A DNA stretch of 64,000 nucleotides from Streptomyces antimycoticus (lineage in GTDB: Bacteria > Actinomycetota > Actinomycetes > Streptomycetales > Streptomycetaceae): assembly GCF_005405925.1 (NCBI RefSeq), contig NZ_BJHV01000001.1, positions 372,001-436,000 of the forward strand, in the 5' to 3' direction. Below are positions 52,995 through 64,000 of this stretch, piece by piece. A program made the position numbers and the translations under genes. Numbering within the stretch: the stretch's first letter is position 1; every line of letters starts with the position of its first letter. Below the pieces are notes generated by a model. It did no database searches, was not told where the DNA came from, and was given only the letters and a program-made list of their open reading frames with translations.

Positions 52995-53112
52995 GCGTCG
53001 CCCGCAGATGTGCGGCCGCGTGGCTGTCCCGCTCGGAAATACGATTCTGTCTCTGGCCTGCAGCTTCTCAGCTCTGAGTGGCGGTCTGGACGGCGTCTGG
53101 GATGATCACCCG

Positions 53113-53917
53113 ATGCCACTATCGATCGTCACCGCGCTGGTCCGGAACCTGATCAAGGTGCCCGCCGCCGTACTGCGCAGCCGCGTGGCCAAGGACGCGG
53201 AGGTCTTGGCGTTGCGGCACGAGAACGCGGTGTTGCGCCGCCAGATCCTCCGAGTCCGCTACGAGCCCGCCGACCGAACCTGGCTCGCCGTCCTTTCCCG
53301 GCTGGTCCCGCGGGAACGCTGGCGCCGCGTATTCGCAGTCACCCCCACCACGCTGCTGGCCTGCCACCGGCAACTCATGGCGCGGAAGTGGACGTTCCCC
53401 CAGCACCGCCGCCCGGGCAGGCCGTCCACCGCTCCCACCATCAAGCAGCTCATCCTGCGGCTGGCCAAGGAAAACAGTACGTGGGGCCACCGCCGCATAC
53501 AGGGCGAACTCGCTCGCCTCGGCTACCCGATCGCCCCGTCCACGGTCTGGGAGATCCTGCACGCGGCCGGCATCGATCCCGCTCCGCAGCGCTCCGGCCC
53601 GACCTGGCATGAATTCCTCACCACCCAGGCCCACGGCATCCTCGCCGCCGACTTCCTTCACATCGACACCATCGCGCTCAAGCGCCTGTACGCCCTGATC
53701 TTCATCGCACACAACACCCGGCGCGTTCACCTCGCCGGGGTCACCGAACGCCCCACCGCCCAGTGGACCATCCAACAGGCCCGAAACCTCACCATGACGC
53801 TGGGGTGCCGGATGGACTCCCTGCGCTTCCTCCTCCGCGACCGGGACAGCAAGTACACCAACGCCTTCGACGCCGTCTTCCAGGCCGACGACGTGGGAAT
53901 CCTGCTCAGCCCTGTGC
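53113..53917 (+). pseudogene. Integrase-core transposase, 3'-truncated
   Basis: About 268 residues of an rve-type transposase: AEVLALRHENAVLRRQILRV, RLAKENSTWGHRRIQGELA, the first Asp in ILAADFLHIDT and the second in LLRDRDSKYTNAF. Homology stops after DDVGILLSP, before the catalytic Glu, so it is inactive. It is related to, but distinct from, the 1241-bp family. RraA-like sequence follows on the other strand. Confidence 0.78.
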
Positions 53918-54069
53918 CGCTCGAAAAATCGTCGCCGCACGTCACGCCGTGTGTCTGTATTCAGCGATGAGGCCCCACAGGATCCGGGTGGCAGGGCTTT
54001 GTGGGCGTCGGGGGCGTGCGCTGCGGTGGGTAGTTCGTGAGTGTCGGGTCGCCCAGGCGGGGTTCGCCG

Positions 54070-54595
54070 CGGCCGGTCGCCGGATGGGACGGGCCAGGGA
54101 AGCCCGGCGTCGTCACAATCCGGCAGCACGGTCAGGGGCGATTCGCCCGCCCGCAGCCGAGCGAGAAGAGCGGGCTCCGCACGGTCCGAGGCGAGCGCGC
54201 GGGCGAGCACATCGACGGCGATCTGCGGGCTGATCACCAGTACACCGTTGTCATCGGTCAGGACGAGGTCACCGGGGCGGACGACGGCGCCGCCGCAGGA
54301 CACGGTCCGGCCCACTCCCCCGTCGCCGTGCCCGAGCCTCTTGGTGGTGAGCAGGCTGGTGCCCCGGGCAAACACCGGCAGCCGCATCTCCCGCAGTTCC
54401 CACAGATCGGTGACGACTCCGTGGACCACGACGCCCGCCGCGCCCGCGGCCCGCGCGGCACAACCGGTGACTGCGACGATCGGAGGTGGGTGACGTTATG
54501 CTCGGTGTCGACCACCAGCACGTCCCCGGGCCCAGCAGGTCCAGTGCCTCGGCCATCAGGGTGGCATCCGGTGGCACGATCCTGACGGTGTGCTT
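54070..54595 (-). pseudogene. RraA-like (HMG/CHA aldolase family) fragment
   Basis: The minus strand reads VRIVPPDATLMAEALDLLGP and GDVLVVDTEHNVTH in one frame. After a frameshift it reads VVHGVVTDLWELREMRLPVF, VSCGGAVVRPGDLVLTDDNG and LVISPQIAVDVLARAL. The N-terminal end is cut exactly at the IS end (54595), and the C-terminus runs into IS debris without a clean stop. Non-functional. The lower boundary is approximate. Confidence 0.7.
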
Positions 54596-55836
54596 GCCGA
54601 GAATTCATCCTCCCTGGTCGGAGGCCTGCACCGGACCTCACAGTCGTCGGCCGCGGTCGCTCGAGCCGGCGCTCTCGCGTAGCCGTTGTCCATGCGTCAT
54701 GATGATCGATCGTGCTGCTACGACTGGCCTACCTTGGTGTGACGAATGCGTTCGCGGTGCTGCGTCTGCTGCCGATGAGCGACCAGGACAAAGATGCAGA
54801 GATTCTCGCCCTGCGCCATCAGATCGCGGTCCTGGAACGCCAACTCGGCAAGAGAAAGGTCCGGTTCAGCTCAAGCGACCGGGCGTTCCTGGCGGCGCTG
54901 CTGCACCGGCTTCCGCTACCCACCCTGCGGCGTGTGCGACTGCTCGTGCGTCCCGACACGGTGCTGCGCTGGCATCGCGACCTCGTCACACGCCACCATG
55001 CCGCGTTATCGCGGCCCAAGCGACCTGGTCGACCTCGTCGTACGGTGCGCTCTATCCGGATTCTGGTGCTGCGTCTGGCGAGGGAGAATCCGCAGTGGGG
55101 GTACAGGCGTCTGCACGGTGAGCTGCTCGTGCTGGGTGTGAAGGTGGCCGCGTCGACCGTCTGGAAGATCCTGAAGGATGCCGGCATCGATCCGGCGCCC
55201 GACCGGAGCTCCAGCACGTGGGCCGACTTCCTGCACTCGCAAGCCGACGCCCTCCTGGCCTGCGATTTCTTTGAGACGGTCACCTTGTCCGGCGCGCGAA
55301 TGTACATACTCGTGGTGATCGAACACAGTAGTCGCCGCATCCGGACCCTGGGCGCCACCGCACACCCGACCACCTTCTGGGTAACACAAGCGGCGAAGAA
55401 CCTGGTCATGGACCTCGAAGACGTCGGCTGCCGGGCACGATTCATGATCCGAGATAGGGACAGGAAGTTCCCCGCCCTGTTCGATGGCGTCCTCGCGGAC
55501 GCGGGGATCACAGTCGTTCTCAGCGGCATCCAGATGCCGAGAATGAACTCGCTCATCGAACGGTGGGTACAGACCTGCAGACGTGAGCTCCTGGACCGGA
55601 CCTTGATCTGGAACCAGCGCCACCTCCTGCACGCCCTGCACAAGTACGGGCAGTTCTACAACGCCCACCGACCCCACCAGGGCATCGCCAACGCCCGACC
55701 GCTGCACCCACTGCCCAAACCGATCAACGATCCGGACAAGTTGAGCCGCCTGGACATACGCCGCCACGACCACCTCGGCGGCATCCTCCACGAATACCAA
55801 CATGCAGCATGACCTGCACGGATGAAGTATTCGGCA
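54596..55836 (+). mobile_element. 1241-bp-family IS, copy C
   Basis: Length is exactly 1241, the same as copies A and B. The left end is TGCCGAGAATTCATCC; read inward, the right end is TGCCGAATACTTCATCC. The terminal sequences differ from copies A and B but share the TGCCGA..ATCATCC-type plan. No target duplication is seen. It interrupts the RraA-like gene. Confidence 0.85.
54712..55812 (+). CDS. rve-superfamily transposase, copy C
   Basis: 366 residues, GTG start, intact. It shows AEILALRHQIAVLERQLGKR, ARENPQWGYRRLHGELLVLG and catalytic Asp in ACDFFETVTLSG, Asp in FMIRDRDRKFPALF and Glu in LIERWVQTCRRELLD. The C-terminus GGILHEYQHAA matches copies A and B. It is the closest relative of the broken copy at 14499. 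Confidence 0.92.
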   Translation: MLLRLAYLGVTNAFAVLRLLPMSDQDKDAEILALRHQIAVLERQLGKRKVRFSSSDRAFLAALLHRLPLPTLRRVRLLVRPDTVLRWHRDLVTRHHAALSRPKRPGRPRRTVRSIRILVLRLARENPQWGYRRLHGELLVLGVKVAASTVWKILKDAGIDPAPDRSSSTWADFLHSQADALLACDFFETVTLSGARMYILVVIEHSSRRIRTLGATAHPTTFWVTQAAKNLVMDLEDVGCRARFMIRDRDRKFPALFDGVLADAGITVVLSGIQMPRMNSLIERWVQTCRRELLDRTLIWNQRHLLHALHKYGQFYNAHRPHQGIANARPLHPLPKPINDPDKLSRLDIRRHDHLGGILHEYQHAA

Positions 55837-55855
55837 GGGACAGTGTCCGACCTGG

Positions 55856-57166
55856 TCAGCCGACGAACTCGACCATGGCAGTCGCCGTGCCGAGCACATG
55901 CCGGGTGTCGCCCGCGTAGGTGACCGTGTACTGGGGATAGGTGTTCCACTCGGGCGGGGTGTCACTGAAGCTGAAGGTGCCGTCCCGTCCGACCTTCACA
56001 TCCGGCAGTTCCACGCCGTCGCGTGTCACCGTGACCGCTCTGCGCTCAGGAAAGGGGACCAGCGAGGTCAGTTTCCCCGTCACGGTGACCGGTGTGCCGA
56101 CGGGGTTCGTCGGCGGGGCGGACAGAGTGATCGTGCTGGATGCCTTGGCGACATCGGTGACGATGTCGAGAACGACCTCGCGCGAGTAGGGGAAGCGGGT
56201 GGTGAACAGCCTGTTGCCGTCGGGCGCCCAGGCCACGCCTCGGTCGAGCAGATCCGCATACCCCGGCGACAACGCGACCGTGCGGTATGCCGCAGTCTCT
56301 CCCGGGCGGTAGACGTAGACGTCCCACTGCCCTCCCGCCACGATCCCCGCGGCGACCGTGCCGTGGGAGTCGACAGCGACGGAGTTGGGGTAGGGGCCGG
56401 TGTCGTACCGGGCCTCCTCCGTCAGGTCCGACAGGCGCCAGCGCTGGTGGTAGTAGTTGGAGCCGATCGTGGTGATCACACTGCTGCCATCCGGCGTCAC
56501 CGCCATGTCCCCGACAGCGCCGAGCGCGTCGCTGTAAGCGGTCTCCCGAAGCGTGCCGGAGCCCACGTCGTACACACGCATGCCCTGCGCGCTCTGGCTC
56601 TCCGCGGCCACGAGCCGGTCGGGCGCACCCGGCGACGCGGCGAGTCGCGGCTTGCCATACCAGACGGGGTTGTCGTCCAAGTCGACGGTCGGGGTCGCCT
56701 CGGCGATGGCGGCCGATCCGATGCCGGCGTCGAAGATGGTGGCCTGGTAGCCGAAGAACAGCCGGCCGCCGGCGAGGGCGAGGCTCTCCGGTTCGGTGCC
56801 GGCCCCGGTTGAGATGCGCCGCGTCTCGGTCAAGGTCGTGGTGTCGATGACGGAGATCGCGTCAGCATCCGTGAGCGCCACGTACAGGGTGGACTCGTCG
56901 GCCGACTCGATCATGCCCCGCGCCCCGTCGAGACCTTCCACCTTCTTGACGACCTGCCCGTCGTGGTCGGTGGCCAGCACCGCGTCGTCGCCGGGCGCGC
57001 TGACGTACACATGGCGGCTGTCGGCTAGGGTCTGCCAGTGCGACTGCACCGGCAGGACGGTGCCGCCCTGGGTCTGTGCCGCTGCCGTGCCGGGGGCACC
57101 GAGCAGATTGAACGACGCGGTCGCCAGGACCAGCGCGACACCCGCCGCGCGTCTTCGTATACGCAC
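55856..57166 (-). CDS. Secreted YncE-type beta-propeller with C-terminal Ig-like domain
   Basis: 436 residues. The signal peptide (RRRAAGVALVLATASFNLLG, cleavage near AAAQT) is followed by propeller blades such as RHVYVSAPGDDAVLATDHDG and TLYVALTDADAISVIDTTTL, with Asp-Gly-rich turns. From about residue 335 there is an Ig-like domain (TLSAPPTNPVGTPVTVTGKL). It is probably a surface or extracellular protein of unknown ligand. GTG start with AAGGAG nine bases upstream. The stop lies 20 bases from IS copy C. Confidence 0.85.
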   Translation of the reverse strand: MRIRRRAAGVALVLATASFNLLGAPGTAAAQTQGGTVLPVQSHWQTLADSRHVYVSAPGDDAVLATDHDGQVVKKVEGLDGARGMIESADESTLYVALTDADAISVIDTTTLTETRRISTGAGTEPESLALAGGRLFFGYQATIFDAGIGSAAIAEATPTVDLDDNPVWYGKPRLAASPGAPDRLVAAESQSAQGMRVYDVGSGTLRETAYSDALGAVGDMAVTPDGSSVITTIGSNYYHQRWRLSDLTEEARYDTGPYPNSVAVDSHGTVAAGIVAGGQWDVYVYRPGETAAYRTVALSPGYADLLDRGVAWAPDGNRLFTTRFPYSREVVLDIVTDVAKASSTITLSAPPTNPVGTPVTVTGKLTSLVPFPERRAVTVTRDGVELPDVKVGRDGTFSFSDTPPEWNTYPQYTVTYAGDTRHVLGTATAMVEFVG

Positions 57167-57569
57167 CTTAGGAACTCCTTCGAGAACGGATCCGGCCGCA
57201 TGGGCACGGTCAGCGGAGCAACTGTAGTGGCCTGCAATGAAATTGGACCTGCAGAATGATCGCGTGCGGAGCGGACGTCAGACCACGGACTCGCCGCGGC
57301 CCTCGTGATCTGACTTCGCACCTGATCGACCGGGCAGCACAGTTGATCATCTTGCCGCGGTGAACATCAGCCTCGCGAGAGCACCCGTTCAGGCGACTTC
57401 GTCGGTCGACCTCAGGTACACCGCGCGCACTGCCTTCCACCAGGGCGGATGAAATTTTCGGCAGGCGCATCCACCCGCTGCGGCAGTCGTCCACTGACGT
57501 TACCGTCACAGTTGCTGTCAAATCCCGAAAGGGCTCCTCAAGATCTCGAAGGAGCCCATTCTTGCTCTG
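57167..57569. other. Spacer containing an IS end fragment
   Basis: No gene. It holds the 130-bp IS remnant listed separately. GC content falls noticeably toward 57560, where the immunity-like gene ends. Confidence 0.5.
57334..57463 (-). mobile_element. Solitary left end of a 1241-bp-family IS
   Basis: On the minus strand it begins TGCCGAAAATTTCATCC and follows the leader of the 14376 copy closely, up to the transposase start codon 123 bases in. Homology then stops. Only an end and leader remain, so this is a deletion scar. Confidence 0.72.
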
Positions 57570-57908
57570 TCAGGAATCGCCGCCAGAAAGAATCACCGCA
57601 GCGAGAATACTAGCACCGCTAGCCTCGCCGTAAAACATCACATCCATTTTTCCGACCTGCACATGAATCAGCTTAATCTCACTCGACTCTGCATCACTAA
57701 ATGCAGACAGCAAGTTAGTCACAAGCCGAGTCACGTCGCGGTCATTACGAGCCTCCGCCCTTCTGAGGCGATTCTCAAAGATGCGAATCAGTTGCCCCTT
57801 GGGAACGGCGCTCTCTTGAAGGATGATTACACCGTACTCATCAACCGCCGAGGCAAGCTGAACCATTCCCAGTCGAGACGCCTCAGCGGAGATAAAGCTT
57901 TCTTTCAT
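57570..57908 (-). CDS. Probable immunity protein for the Rhs toxin
   Basis: 112 residues from the ATG at 57908, which overlaps the Rhs stop (ATGA); an ATG at 57932 would add eight. No known family. It is a small, mostly alpha/beta-looking acidic protein (MVQLASAVDEYGVIIL, RRAEARNDRDVTRLVTNLLS, IKLIHVQVGKMDVMFYG). Its GC content is clearly below that of the surroundings, as is that of the toxin tail. Position directly after an Rhs C-terminus, coupled translation and matching composition are the classic signs of a polymorphic-toxin immunity gene. Binding to the toxin is inferred, not shown. Confidence 0.7.
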   Translation of the reverse strand: MKESFISAEASRLGMVQLASAVDEYGVIILQESAVPKGQLIRIFENRLRRAEARNDRDVTRLVTNLLSAFSDAESSEIKLIHVQVGKMDVMFYGEASGASILAAVILSGGDS

Positions 57909-60900
57909 CGGCCTGTCCCAGGTAGATGCCATGGACCCCTGTTGACGCTAATTTCAGCACCTTCGATAACCCCTTCCACTAGGAGTTCACTCTCACCGTA
58001 AATATCCTGCGGGCCCTTAATCAGACGGTCCTGTATGTCCACACGACGATGGCGCATAACAATCCCTGGACCATTGCCTAGTTCGGCGGCATCCAATGCC
58101 ACACCTTCGTAATCGTCTGTCCAGGATGTGAATGGGCTGTCGAGGTTTCCTCCGTTGTGTGACGCCGCATCAGCATCTCCACCGCGTGGCACTGCTCGCC
58201 CTTCGAGAGCATCGTCATACTTGGAGTGCCCCCAATCTATTCCGCGGTAGACGTGCTCCCCGGCCTCTTCGCCGCAATTGTGAACCAGAACCGGAGTTGT
58301 CCCCGCCAGCACATAGTACGTGTGGATGCCGCTTACGGTCAGGTCGTGGGTGCGCTGTCGCTGCGTGAAGTGACGGGTGTGCTTGACCGTGACGGTGTGG
58401 CCGTCCGGGGTACGCAAAGTCATCCCCGGCTTGAGGTCACCGGCTTTGACCCATGCGTGCTGAGTCTGTACCCAGAAGGGGTGCGTCGTGGTTGCTATGA
58501 GGCCCGCTGAAGACTCACCAGCGTTGGTGACGGTGAGGTCAACGAAGGTCTTGTCGTCTTCGGTGACGACGGTTCCGGCGACTTTGCGTATCGTGGTCTT
58601 GCCGGTGTCGGGGTCGGTGACTTTTACCTTGTCCCCGGTCTTGATGTCCTCGATGGGTTTGGTGGAGCCGTCGGCGAGGAGGACTCCGGTGCCTGGAACG
58701 AAGCTGTGGCATAGGGTCTCTGATGTCCGCCCTGCTGGTTCCTCGGCTGGTTCCTTATTGCGGCCCCTCCAGGTCTCGACTCCTTCTTCCACCGCCTTTT
58801 TGGCGCCACGAGCGATGAGTTTGGCCTTGTTGTAGCCAGTCATGTCGATGGCAGCCTGGGTGCAGGGTCCCAGGTCCCACGTGGCGTAGCACGTTCCTAT
58901 GGCGGCAAGCGGGTTGAGTTCCTTGAAGGTGGTTTTTGCTACCTTGAGCCACCAGGGGTCGGGCAGATTCTGCCGCTTCGTTATGTGGTCCTGAACCAGG
59001 TAATCGACGCGTGAGCCGTATCCAGTGGTGAGCTTGCCGTTATGGCAGTTGTAGCCGCAGCGGTACTGGGCTCTCGCGGCCGCACCCGCGTCACTGCTTC
59101 CGCTGCTTCCGCCGCTGGGGTAGTGGTTTTCGGGTGGAGCGCCGTGGCCTGCGTTCCCACCGTTGGTCGGCATGCAGTGACCGTTCCCGGGGTCTTCGCA
59201 GAGTCCCGTCGGGTCGCTGAAGGTGAGGGGGTTGCTGTTGGCGTACGCGTACCCCTGCATCTGCTGGGTGTCGCCCGGCTCCATGACCGGGTCGACCGAG
59301 AGGAATCGCCCGGTGGTGGGGTCGTATTCGCGGGCCCCCAAGTGGGTGAAGCCGGTGGTCTTGGTGTCGTCGGTTCCGCCGACGAAGCCCTTGGTACCGG
59401 GCCAGGCGGTGGCCTGCTGGCCGCGCACGCCGCCGAAGGGCAGGGTGCGGCGTTGGGTGAGCTTCTGTGTGGCGGTGTCGACGGCGAGTTGTGCGGTGCC
59501 GTGGTGGTCGGCGAGGGTGAGGGAGACGGTGCCGTCGTCTTCCTGGACGGCCTGGTTGCCGCCGCCCAGGTCGATGTAGCGGGTGGCCTTCGGTGTGCTG
59601 GATCCCTTGGGCAGGGTGATCTCGGTGCTGCCGAGGTAGAGGGTGGTCTCGGTGGGGCCGCGGCCTATCACGCGGTTGCCGTCGGCGTCGTAGAGGTATT
59701 CGGTGACCTTGTCGTTGCCGCCCTCGGCCGGCTCGGTCACCTTGGCCAGGTGTCCCTCTACGTCCCATGCCAGCGTCCCGGTGTCGCCGCCGAGAGTGCG
59801 AGTGGTGGTGTTTCCCGCCTTGTCGTACCCGAAGGACTCCTGTGACGTGCCGTTGGGGCCGGTTGCCTCGACAGAGGTGAGGGTGTGCGGCTGGGCGCCA
59901 CCCGGCTCGGGGTAGCCGTAGGTGCGCTTGGTGTCCTTCTTCGCGTCGCCTGTGGGGTCGTGGAGGGTTTCTGTACGGCGATTGCCGACATGGTCGTAGG
60001 TGTAGGAGTGCCAGTATGCGGCCGGCCCCCCAGCACGCCGCCGCTCGGGGCAGCGGCGCAGTTGGTGTCGCCTTGTGTCCATGCCTCGGTCAGACGCCGC
60101 AGGTAGTCGTAGGTGAAGCACTGGTTGTCGGTGCCGGAGCGGGAAACGTCCGACACGGACAGGACGTTGCCTGCTTCGTCGTAGCGCAGACTGTTGAATT
60201 GATCGACGCCTGCGACGTCCTGCCGGTCGACGCGGGCGGTGGCAAGGCGCTGGGTGCCCCACTCATAGGTGTTGGTGACCCAGGTGTTCTTGCTCCCGTT
60301 GTCCGACAGCTCGTATTGCAGGGGTTTGCCGGTGAGGCTGTAGCTGACGGTCGACTTCAGGCCCTCGCTGCCGTCGATCGCGACGGGACGCAGCGTTTCG
60401 TCTTCATAGGTGAGGACGACCGTCGTTGCCGGCAGAGCTCCGGCCTTCGGGTAGCCAGTACCTTCGACGAGGCCGGAGACCTTGTAGGAGGTCGTGGACA
60501 GATAGGTCCCCTGCAGTGCTCCTTCGGAGGCGGGGATGGTGACGGAGGAGCGAAGCGGGCGGTACAGGCGGTCGTAGGCGACGACCTTGGAGGTGTAGGC
60601 CTGACTTCCCTGGTAGCGGGTGGATTCAGCCAGGTAGCCCTTGGCTTCGCGGACGGTGTCGTACACCCACTTCGCCCGCAGCTCACCGCCGGGGGAGTCC
60701 TTGTGGAGTTCCGTCCGGCGGCCGAGGCCGTCGTAGACATAGGCCAGGGTGGTGTCACGCGCGTCCGTGGTGGAAGTCAGCTGACCACGGTCGTCGTAGA
60801 CACTCGTGCTGGTGCCTTTGTCGGGATCAGTGGTTTTGGTGAGGCGACCGATCAGGTCGTAGGCGTAGGTCCAGCTGTTCTTGGAGGGATCGGTGACCTT

Positions 60901-61957
60901 CTCGAGCTCGCCGCGGGGTGTGTAGGTGTAGGTGGTGGTGTCGTAGGCGGCGTCGGCGGTGCGCTGGTGGTGCTGGCGCAGTTCGGTGGTCTGGCCGCGG
61001 GCGTCGGTGAGGGTGGTGGTGGCTGTGCCGCCTACGGGTGGGATGACAGTGGTGCGGTCGCCGCCGTAGATGGTCTTGGTCACGCCCAGGACGCTGCCGC
61101 CGTCGCCGTTTCCGGCGATCTGCCGTGTCTCGGTCTGTCGGCCCAGGCCGTCGTAGGTGTAGCGGTTCTGCGTCTCGACGCTCAGCGCGTCCTCGGGCTT
61201 GAAGAGTGTGGTGGTCGGTTTGCCGTCGGCGTAGTACGTGGCGAAGTCCTTGGACTTCAGGCTGCGTTCGTCGTAGAAGACGTCCGTGAGCAGTCGACCG
61301 CCGTCCGGGCCGGGGGCTTGTGCCTGCCGCTCGCGCAGGAGGCCGTCGTAGAGGGTGTAGGAGGTGCGCTGCGCGCCGTTGTTGCCCAGTGTCTTGGCGC
61401 CGACGGCAACGGGCCGGTTCTCGGTGACGGTGTAGGTGAACTCATAGGTGGGGGTCTGGCCGGTGAGCCGGTCCGCCAGCCACACCTTGGTGGAGCGGCC
61501 CAGCGCGTCGTAGGCGTAGCTGGTGGTCTTGTCGTTGGTGTCGGTCTGCTTCAGGGGCAGGCCGCGTAGCGCATCGCGGGTGGTGGTGGTTGTCTGTGCG
61601 GTGCTCGCGTCGCCTGCCTTGGCGGGTGGCGACGTCACCTTCGTGGTAACGGGGATACCCGTGGCGGGGGTATAGGCGGTTGTGGTGGTGCGGCCGTCCG
61701 TCCGGGCTGTCCGCTGGAGCGCGCCCGCCGCGGTGGCGGTGACGTCGGCCGTCAGGTCGGTGCTGGTCAGGGCGCGTCCGTACGAGTCGTAGGTGGACCC
61801 GGACTCCGTGTAGACCGCGGTGGTGCCGTCGTACTTCTTCAGCATCGCCGTCCCGGTGGCGTCTCCTCTGGTCGGGGCCGCGCCGTAGGCACCGCTGTCG
61901 TAGGCCGTGCGCGTGTCGGAGATGACGTCGTCCGGTCGGCTGACGGCAGCATCACAT
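57905..61957 (-). pseudogene. Rhs/YD-repeat polymorphic toxin, N-terminally truncated and frameshifted
   Basis: About 1350 residues remain. From the cut N-terminus come many YD repeats (YDSYGRALTSTD, YAYDALGRSTKVW, YTYDGLGRQTETR), then the Rhs core (LGAREYDPTTGRFLSVDPV and NPLTFSDPTGLC near 59190). A Hint autoprocessing domain runs from CHSFVPGTGVLLADG to PVLVHNC (about 58268-58712). The last 120 residues form the toxin: VYRGIDWG, SPFTSWTDDYEG and YGESELLVEG give an Arg, Ser-Thr-Ser-like and Glu-x-Glu set typical of ADP-ribosyltransferases. IS copy B cuts the N-terminus at 61957. One G is missing from a G-run near 60030, where VLGG should continue PAAYWHSYTYDHVGNR. Confidence 0.85.
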
Positions 61958-63198
61958 TGCGGGTGCCGATAAATCATCCACGCAGGTCGGGAGACTGATC
62001 GCGGATCTCCAGTTCTCCTCGACCTTCACGCCGGGTGCCTTCACCCGCTCAGGGTCCTGGCGGCATCATGATCTGTCGTGCTGCTGCGCCTGGCCTACCT
62101 CACCGCGACCAACGCCCTTGCCTTCCTACGCCTCCTGCCGATGAGCGACAGAGACAAGGACATCGAGATCCTCGTACTCCGGCACCAACTGCTCGTCCTC
62201 CAGCGCCAGGTCGGCAAACCGACCCTCACCGACAGCGACCGCGCCATCCTCGCCGGCCTGCTCCACCACCTCCCCAAAGACAGACTGCGGCACCTTCTGC
62301 CGCTGGTCCGCCCCGACACAGTGTTGCGCTGGCATCGCAATCTGCTCAGGCGACGCCATGCCACGACCTGCGTACCCAAGCGACGCGGACGCCCACGCAC
62401 CATCCGATCGATCCGCGCCCTGACCCTGCGCCTGGCCAGGGAAAATGCCTCGTGGGGATATCGCCGGATCCACGGCGAACTCGCCGCACTGGGGATCAGG
62501 GTAGCCGCCTCCACTGTCTGGGAGATCCTCCGCGAGCATGGCGTCCCGCCCGCACCCGCACGGCAGAGCACCACCTGGGCCGATTTTCTGCGCAGCCAGG
62601 CCAAGGCTCTTCTCGCCTGCGATCCGTTCGAAGTCCGCACTCTGACGGGGGCGCGCCTCTACGTCTTCGCTGTCATCGAGCACACCACCCGTCGCATCCG
62701 GATCCTCGGCGCCACGGCACACCCCACCGCGGAGTGGATCGTGCAGCTCGGACGCAACCTGCTGATGGATCTCGAGGACGCGGGTGCGAGGGCACGGTTC
62801 CTGATCCGCGACCGGGACTCGAAGTTCACAACTGCCTTCGACGTCCTCATGGCCGATGCCGGTCTCAAGGTCGTCACCACCGGTATTCGGATACCACGGA
62901 TGAACTCGGTCATGGAGCGCTGGATACAGACCTGCCGCACCGAACTCCTGGACCGGACCTTGATCTGGAACCAGAGCCACCTCCTCCACGCACTGCGCGA
63001 GTACGAATCCTTCTACAACGAGCACCGCCCGCACAGGGCCCTGGAACAAGCCGCTCCATGCCGCCCACTACCCGCACCCATCACCCAACAAGCCCAACTC
63101 GCCCACCTGAAAATCGACCGACGAGACCGACTCGGCGGAACCCTCCACGAGTACGGACGTGCCGCATGACCAGGCCGGATGTTTTATCGGCACCCGCA
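61958..63198 (+). mobile_element. Intact 1241-bp IS element, copy B
   Basis: Same length, orientation and 22-bp ends as copy A. Left end 61958-61979; right end 63177-63198, ending GTTTTATCGGCACCCGCA. I see only a few single-base differences from copy A (for example A to G near the right end). No target duplication. It separates the Rhs gene from an MFS fragment, and each of these is cut at the IS. Confidence 0.92.
62078..63169 (+). CDS. rve-superfamily (DDE) transposase, copy B
   Basis: 363 residues, identical to copy A except Ile instead of Ser at residue 112. Catalytic residues are as in copy A. Intact and probably active. Confidence 0.93.
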   Translation: MLLRLAYLTATNALAFLRLLPMSDRDKDIEILVLRHQLLVLQRQVGKPTLTDSDRAILAGLLHHLPKDRLRHLLPLVRPDTVLRWHRNLLRRRHATTCVPKRRGRPRTIRSIRALTLRLARENASWGYRRIHGELAALGIRVAASTVWEILREHGVPPAPARQSTTWADFLRSQAKALLACDPFEVRTLTGARLYVFAVIEHTTRRIRILGATAHPTAEWIVQLGRNLLMDLEDAGARARFLIRDRDSKFTTAFDVLMADAGLKVVTTGIRIPRMNSVMERWIQTCRTELLDRTLIWNQSHLLHALREYESFYNEHRPHRALEQAAPCRPLPAPITQQAQLAHLKIDRRDRLGGTLHEYGRAA

Positions 63199-63480
63199 GA
63201 GCGCGACGCCGACGCGGGTGAGGCCGGCGCCCAGGCTGGTGGGGAGAAGTGTCGCGCCGGTAACGATCGGCGATGCCTCCTCCAAGAAGGAGCGTCGCAA
63301 CCATCGGGACCAAGGCCGCAGTGGTGACCGCGGACAACCAGGTCGCACTATCGGTGACCTCCGGGACGCCGAAGGCCAGGGCGACAGGCGACATGGCACT
63401 GCCCGCCATGGAGATCGACTGGACGCCCAGAAGCCAACGGAAGGCAGCGGAACGGAACGGCCGCTCGGACGCGAGGCCCG
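63199..63480 (-). pseudogene. MFS transporter N-terminal fragment
   Basis: The minus strand reads FRWLLGVQSISMAGSAM, SPVALAFGVPEVTDSATW and LVPMVATLLLGGGIADRY, the first two helices and the loop motif of an MFS exporter. A frameshift then leads to TLLPTSLGAGLTRVGVAL before IS copy B truncates it at 63199. The N-terminal limit is not clear. Confidence 0.62.
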
Positions 63481-64000
63481 TACTGGAAACCGGTAACGCG
63501 CCCCCTTCAAGTGTGGTTCACGATCTCGACTCTCGGGCGCATCCGCTGCAGGCACAACGGGCCACCGTGCCAGCACACGCAGCGAGCCTGAAGTCGTTTT
63601 CGCAGGGGGCGCGCCGCTGCCAGGCGCGGCCACAGCGCACAACGAACGGAGTGACCCGAGCCACTCAACCTTCGCTGCAGGAGGTCAGCGTTCACGCGGG
63701 TCGGGGCGCAGCAGCACCCGTTCACGCAGGTGGTGCTGCGGGCGTGCTCACGCGGTCCGCACCAGCTCCGCGTTCCGGCGCGACAGGGGGAACGTCGTGT
63801 GCGGGCCGGACATACATGTCATAGGCCAGGACCTGCCTGCCGCTGCCGCAGACCGGACTCCGCTCCCTCCTCGGTTTCTTGTAACTCCTCTAAAACTCAT
63901 GCGTTTCTTTGGAAACTCGCGCCGCATAAAACCTTCCCAATCACAACGCGCCATTGCGACCCCTCCATCACGCCCCGTACCTTCGGAGGTTCATTCATCC
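63481..64000. other. Right edge, no supported gene
   Basis: About 520 bases. The last 150 become AT-richer and contain GTTTC-TTTG-GAAAC, a short palindrome near 63902-63915. GGAGG at 63987 may be a ribosome site for a gene that starts past the window. I cannot support a gene inside. Confidence 0.4.

Follow-up and report, generated by a model that had tools for sequence, protein, structure and literature searches.

In the papers compared here, Rhs-carried toxins with an ADP-ribosyltransferase (ART) domain belong mainly to type VI systems of Gram-negative bacteria. Here, we analyzed a stretch of 64,000 nucleotides (nt) of the Streptomyces antimycoticus contig NZ_BJHV01000001.1 (GCF_005405925.1, positions 372,001 to 436,000), called the window, to which all positions refer. 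It contains an Rhs frame with a C-terminal tail and a small overlapping gene. This pair can with good confidence be assigned to a Hint-type Rhs polymorphic toxin gene that is missing its front half; it represents the toxin-immunity end, with the tail as an ART and the small gene encoding the cognate immunity protein. The toxin kind is already known, since Zhang et al. 2012 (PMC3482391) list the class Tox-ART-RSE, which has motifs with R, S and E, carriers of the Rhs and HINT kinds, and hosts that include Actinobacteria. The window toxin resembles this class in all three respects, but the immunity partners listed there are Imm41 and ADP-ribosyl glycohydrolase, while its own neighbor matches no Pfam family.

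The Rhs C-terminal toxins TreTu and TreX of Xenorhabdus bovienii, which have the immunity proteins TriTu and TriX, differ from the window tail, which is actinobacterial and predicted to be released by Hint; profile comparison to them gave E-values of only 0.12 and 0.084. Scabin and ScARP are guanine-specific ARTs of Streptomyces, but they are secreted stand-alone proteins with a Q-x-E acceptor motif and not Rhs tails, whereas the window tail has E-x-E. Vorin of Erwinia is similar by description: this Rhs-linked ART tail is about 133 residues long, lies in a low-GC stretch and has a neighboring immunity protein, VorinI, that copurifies with it, but its context is type VI secretion (PMC7764402). 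RhsF-CT of Chromobacterium is also an Rhs tail with an ART fold and an immunity protein; according to PMC13324451, it has an R-Y-E triad, in contrast to R-S-E in the window tail, and modifies RNA in vitro. A title cited in the same paper refers to an Rhs toxin that ADP-ribosylates EF-Tu. Tne5 likewise combines an ART-fold Rhs tail with a downstream immunity gene, but is an NAD(P) glycohydrolase for which a Lys/Glu pair was suggested in place of R-S-E (PMC13285283). In the titles and abstract openings of the open-access papers searched, we found no description of the Rhs ART tail family analyzed here.

Predicted toxin tail behind an Rhs core and a Hint domain

The preliminary description of this DNA had proposed an Rhs toxin with a Hint domain and a tail after PVLVHNC that follows the R-S-E ART plan. 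The corresponding features are as follows:

57905..60262, minus strand: open frame, 785 codons, comprising the end of the Rhs core, the Hint domain and the tail (open reading frame [ORF] list)
59201..59440, minus strand: Rhs repeat-associated core domain, residues 275-354 (TIGR03696, E 5.6e-16)
58277..58702, minus strand: Hint (pretoxin HINT) domain (PF07591, residues 530-662, E 9e-20)
57908..58276, minus strand: tail of 123 codons beginning at Cys663, predicted to be a toxin of the R-S-E ADP-ribosyltransferase kind (motifs, model)
58244-58246, minus strand: codon of tail Arg11 (VYRG)
58124-58126, minus strand: codon of tail Ser51 (SPFTSWT)
57992-57994 and 57986-57988, minus strand: codons of tail Glu95 and Glu97, the ExE (GESELLVEG)
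57905-57907, minus strand: toxin stop codon TGA (codons read back)

An Rhs core and a pretoxin HINT domain thus precede a variable tail, as in Hint-type Rhs polymorphic toxins (TIGR03696, PF07591). The Pfam match to PF07591 spans 58277-58675, the Hint domain ends with HN, and the tail starts with Cys663, directly after PVLVHN. The initial approximately 80 codons of the 785-codon frame are not in the Rhs reading frame.

Although searches with the tail gave no usable Pfam or NCBIfam match, the motifs VYRG, SPFTSWT and GESELLVEG are present, and their key codons were read back. In an alignment of 27 tails (30 same-genus loci minus L013, L026 and L030 with truncated or fused tails), R11, G12, G26, P30, G32, H40, A60, E97 and the block T50-S51-W52 are invariant, and E95 is present in 25 of the 27. 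In a wider alignment (A3; repeat loci, the near-duplicates L007 and L012, and the partial tails L048 and L049 removed), R11, S51 and E97 are kept in 33/33 tails and E95 in 30/33. Because of this retention, the R-S-E motif is not a chance match. In the structure model, R11 is located on strand 8-13 and S51 on strand 49-53, while strand 96-101 holds E97; this corresponds to the class II (R-S-E) arrangement with Arg on strand 1, Ser on strand 2 and ExE at strand 5. The modeled tail adopts an ART fold, as the preliminary description had suggested checking, and the closest solved structures are TreTu/TreX (PDB 8s2n, 8s2m, 9gco; 17-18% identity). We conclude that the tail is most likely an R-S-E ADP-ribosyltransferase-like domain, with its enzyme activity predicted from sequence and model. 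Although the carrier is broken, no decay was apparent in the window tail. The pair can be called intact, as suggested in the preliminary description.

In a complete gene, the Rhs shell would carry the tail, and cleavage by Hint at Asn662/Cys663 would free the 123 residues. The released tail could then use NAD to transfer ADP-ribose onto a target in a competing bacterium, with Arg11 and Ser51 holding NAD and Glu97 acting as the catalytic acid. An ExE motif indicates protein arginine as the acceptor, and Glu95 would therefore point to such a target. The product of the small gene would bind the tail as its cognate immunity protein. In this strain, the residual use of the pair may be that of an immunity gene and a recombination donor.

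Overlapping probable immunity gene

Two further features adjoin the toxin end:

57570..57908, minus strand: probable immunity gene of 112 codons (shares ATGA with the end of the toxin frame)
57531..57557, minus strand: hairpin directly 3' of the immunity gene, resembling a terminator except for its weak T run (folding)

The small gene starts at 57908, and its ATGA, shared with the toxin TGA, results in the four-base overlap noted before. This start is provisional, since another in-frame ATG, at 57932, would extend the gene to 120 codons and the overlap to 28 bases. In line with the preliminary description, the gene matches no Pfam family: the only Pfam hits were DUF3948 and TauD, both below their cut-offs, and the Imm41 and ADP-ribosyl glycohydrolase models did not match. 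Similarly, a Pfam search with 29 immunity alignment members (E 0.01) returned only CoaE, in one member. The protein model is of high confidence (predicted local distance difference test score 92.6), but no convincing counterpart was found among solved structures; TriX is not among the matches listed, although such a list cannot prove absence. The GC content decreases stepwise from 0.66-0.67 in the upstream Rhs part over 0.608 in Hint and 0.567 in the tail to 0.516 in the small gene, as compared to a window mean of 0.676, in line with the lower-GC patch described earlier. The hairpin (56-nt stretch) has a minimum free energy of -23.2 kcal/mol (z -3.17; 1/200 shuffles equally good) and was not among the terminators listed by a scan.

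The window-type immunity gene was detected in 2/392 same-genus genomes, the own genome and G380 (97% identical copy), in both directly behind the tail. In a third case, a contig of Wenjunlia tyrosinilytica, the tail is 96% and the immunity gene 65% identical. Genomic neighbors were read for these three loci. An immunity-like gene, as judged by eye, follows the tail in 29/30 same-genus loci, L030 being the exception. These genes are of several types, including a 255-residue tandem (L027, L028) and DUF6000 (L020, L021). Profile comparison linked T3 to T4 (98%), T2 to T3 (93%) and T6 to the tandem halves (95% and 92%), while the window type was linked weakly, to one other type (62%). We conclude that this small gene very probably encodes the immunity protein, which would protect against the tail.

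Some loci differ in the gene behind the tail. In L027, L028 and L045, it encodes a protein of 250-255 residues in which two related halves stand in tandem (97.8% to each other by hhalign), and the tails preceding these tandems are without the first Glu of ExE. In L020 and L021, the position behind the ART tail is taken by a DUF6000 (PF19463) gene in place of the small gene normally present there, and L046 has a similar protein by eye. DUF6000, on which we found no paper among the open-access papers searched, may be an immunity family. At L030, what is left of the tail continues in the same frame into the remains of an immunity gene, resembling a decayed toxin-antidote fusion.

Broken carrier and alternative explanations

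Upstream, the carrier comprises the following features:

60025..61957, minus strand: Rhs (YD) repeats in the upstream part of the carrier, other frame (PF05593, TIGR01643)
61958..63198, plus strand: insertion sequence (IS copy B) cutting the carrier (31-nt inverted repeats, rve_3 transposase at 62078-63169)

Rhs repeats go on upstream of the 785-codon frame in another frame (ORF 59758-61977, PF05593 E 8e-22), and the two frames meet near 60.0 kb. The inverted repeats of the IS (31 nt, 84% complementary) are located at 61958-61988 and 63168-63198, and the element terminates the carrier at 61957; this end of the studied stretch is exact because the inverted repeat starts at 61958. The flanks of the IS have no common duplication within 15 bases. 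No Rhs start was seen within the window, and past the IS a major facilitator superfamily-like frame follows (translation read by eye). When the window part 53001-64000 was compared by blastn to L031, a locus of genome G380 with a 2,688-codon frame, the matches ended at 61945, corresponding to roughly codon 1,300, and the front of the L031 frame was unmatched. Therefore, within the window at any rate, the front half of the carrier is missing. Since a second long frame overlaps the start of the 2,688-codon frame, the L031 gene is not called proven intact. With the frame change near 60.0 kb and the IS at 61958, the window holds no complete carrier with an N-terminal delivery part. The most economical account is that the Rhs gene lost its front to an IS-linked event, while the toxin-immunity end is still intact; the module is probably not deliverable in this strain.

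Several other explanations were weighed. The frame change could be an assembly or sequencing error, with the IS truncation alone being real. We consider this unlikely; the frame change is seen in a single assembly, and no observation speaks against such an error. However, the IS is sufficient to take away the carrier front, as indicated by the end of the L031 match. The preliminary description had also considered a stored toxin cassette or orphan tip. In this reading, the locus would be a silent cassette that is placed behind a main Rhs gene and used by recombination only. Orphan tips occur in the tail family: a Streptomyces xanthophaeus plasmid has one following a HINT toxin gene of 6.9 kb, and L025, L029 and L038 have frames that begin anew at the final Hint strand. 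Furthermore, the blastn match to the Wenjunlia contig (78.5%) reaches only as far as 58347, just inside the Hint end. However, the window tail is in frame with a complete-looking Hint domain and Rhs core end, further Rhs repeats follow upstream in the other frame up to the IS, and the 82% similarity to L031 (57531-58708) runs from the hairpin through Hint to its start. We therefore regard the locus as the 3' half of an Rhs gene minus its front half and consider an orphan tip quite improbable. Of the preliminary description, the R-S-E ART reading of the tail, the small gene as likely immunity gene, the intact pair and the broken carrier were supported, while a stored cassette or orphan tip was not supported for the window.

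With respect to function, an ART-fold tail could also be an NAD(P) glycohydrolase that drains the NAD of the target cell and modifies nothing. An Rhs toxin with this fold and activity is described in PMC13285283, which states that a structural model alone cannot tell the two activities apart. For that toxin, Lys and Glu were suggested as the catalytic pair, whereas R-S-ExE is present in 30/33 tails here. Moreover, the solved structures closest to the tail are those of the Rhs toxins TreTu/TreX. We take both to be ADP-ribosyltransferases, TreTu presumably being the toxin that modifies EF-Tu, and rate glycohydrolase activity as improbable. The small gene, in turn, could be a chance or unrelated neighbor, in agreement with its lack of a Pfam match, its predicted fold without a convincing solved match, and its weak link to other downstream gene types. 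This explanation is very improbable, since the gene overlaps the toxin stop, has seven relatives at 64-83% identity in the protein database (besides its own entry), shows a constrained reading frame (ratio of nonsynonymous to synonymous change [dN/dS] 0.2-0.34), and was the same neighbor in 3/3 loci inspected.

Proposed turnover and spread of the module

Among the window, L002 and L059, dN/dS of the tail was 0.03, 0.015 and 0.015, and that of the immunity gene was 0.22, 0.34 and 0.20 (Nei-Gojobori counts from three sequences, with silent change to L059 near saturation). The dN alone was 6- to 11-fold higher in the immunity gene than in the tail. In 30/31 cases (exception L004), the nearest tail has the same immunity type, and the observed agreement was never reached in 5,000 label-shuffling trials, but relatedness inflates both results; the types were assigned by the author from sequences and profile comparison. 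In these sequences, tail subgroup predicts immunity type. The module borders vary between relatives, as seen for L031 and the Wenjunlia contig. The tail is preceded by a Hint end in 20/33 tails and by a DPLGL-type Rhs end in 8, while 5 were unassigned by pattern.

In six-frame searches (own genome counted), tail relatives were found in 30/392 same-genus genomes. The order sample had them in 14/293 genomes, which all belong to one genus, and the phylum sample in 3/396, including one genome of a different family. Searching the protein database with the tail profile retrieved 77 short proteins. Sixty of them have letters in all three triad columns, and 57 of these kept R, S and E, together with E95 in the same 57; this retention is not independent of the profile, because the proteins were found with it. 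Named sources include Microbispora, Amycolatopsis and, with a partial Rhs protein, the gammaproteobacterium Lonsdalea.

We tentatively suggest, at somewhat less than even confidence, an unnamed family of R-S-ExE ART tips of about 120 residues, mostly in Streptomyces and reaching other actinobacteria and a gammaproteobacterial Rhs fragment. It would move as a tip-immunity module between Hint- and DPLGL-released carriers, with the toxin nearly frozen (96% to the Wenjunlia copy at near-saturated silent change) and partners turning over into several types including DUF6000; the window immunity type would add a new fold to the inhibitors of ART toxins. This sizeable actinobacterial family without a Pfam model offers ready toxin-immunity pairs and, because the toxin is nearly frozen while its partners change faster, a good set for studying immunity replacement without toxin change. 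It also suggests a function that can be tested for the small proteins, among them those encoded by the DUF6000 genes that follow some tails.

Further observations were made at related loci. In genome G380, a decayed second tail copy and a different immunity-type gene (L031, 9774-9998 and 10225-10632) follow directly behind the first pair and resemble a displaced older module. The orphan ART tip on the S. xanthophaeus plasmid (L057, 3959-4808), with its own small gene, is located behind the large HINT toxin gene and that gene's neighbor and adjoins a tyrosine recombinase and a replication initiator; L058 has the same recombinase/initiator order behind a HINT-fused tail. In the own genome, L055 (C1, about 2.85 Mb) has another Rhs tail, by eye a different ART (GYVATSLS, EKEVAFP), and the other three further Rhs core loci have other tails. 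In the window, two transposases of the same type (54712-55812 and 62078-63169; 239 identical residues of 366/363) flank the region, with clear terminal repeats at the right-hand one only. Just downstream of the immunity gene, a secreted-looking protein (by eye) with weak SMP-30/beta-propeller matches is encoded at 55856-57166 on the minus strand.
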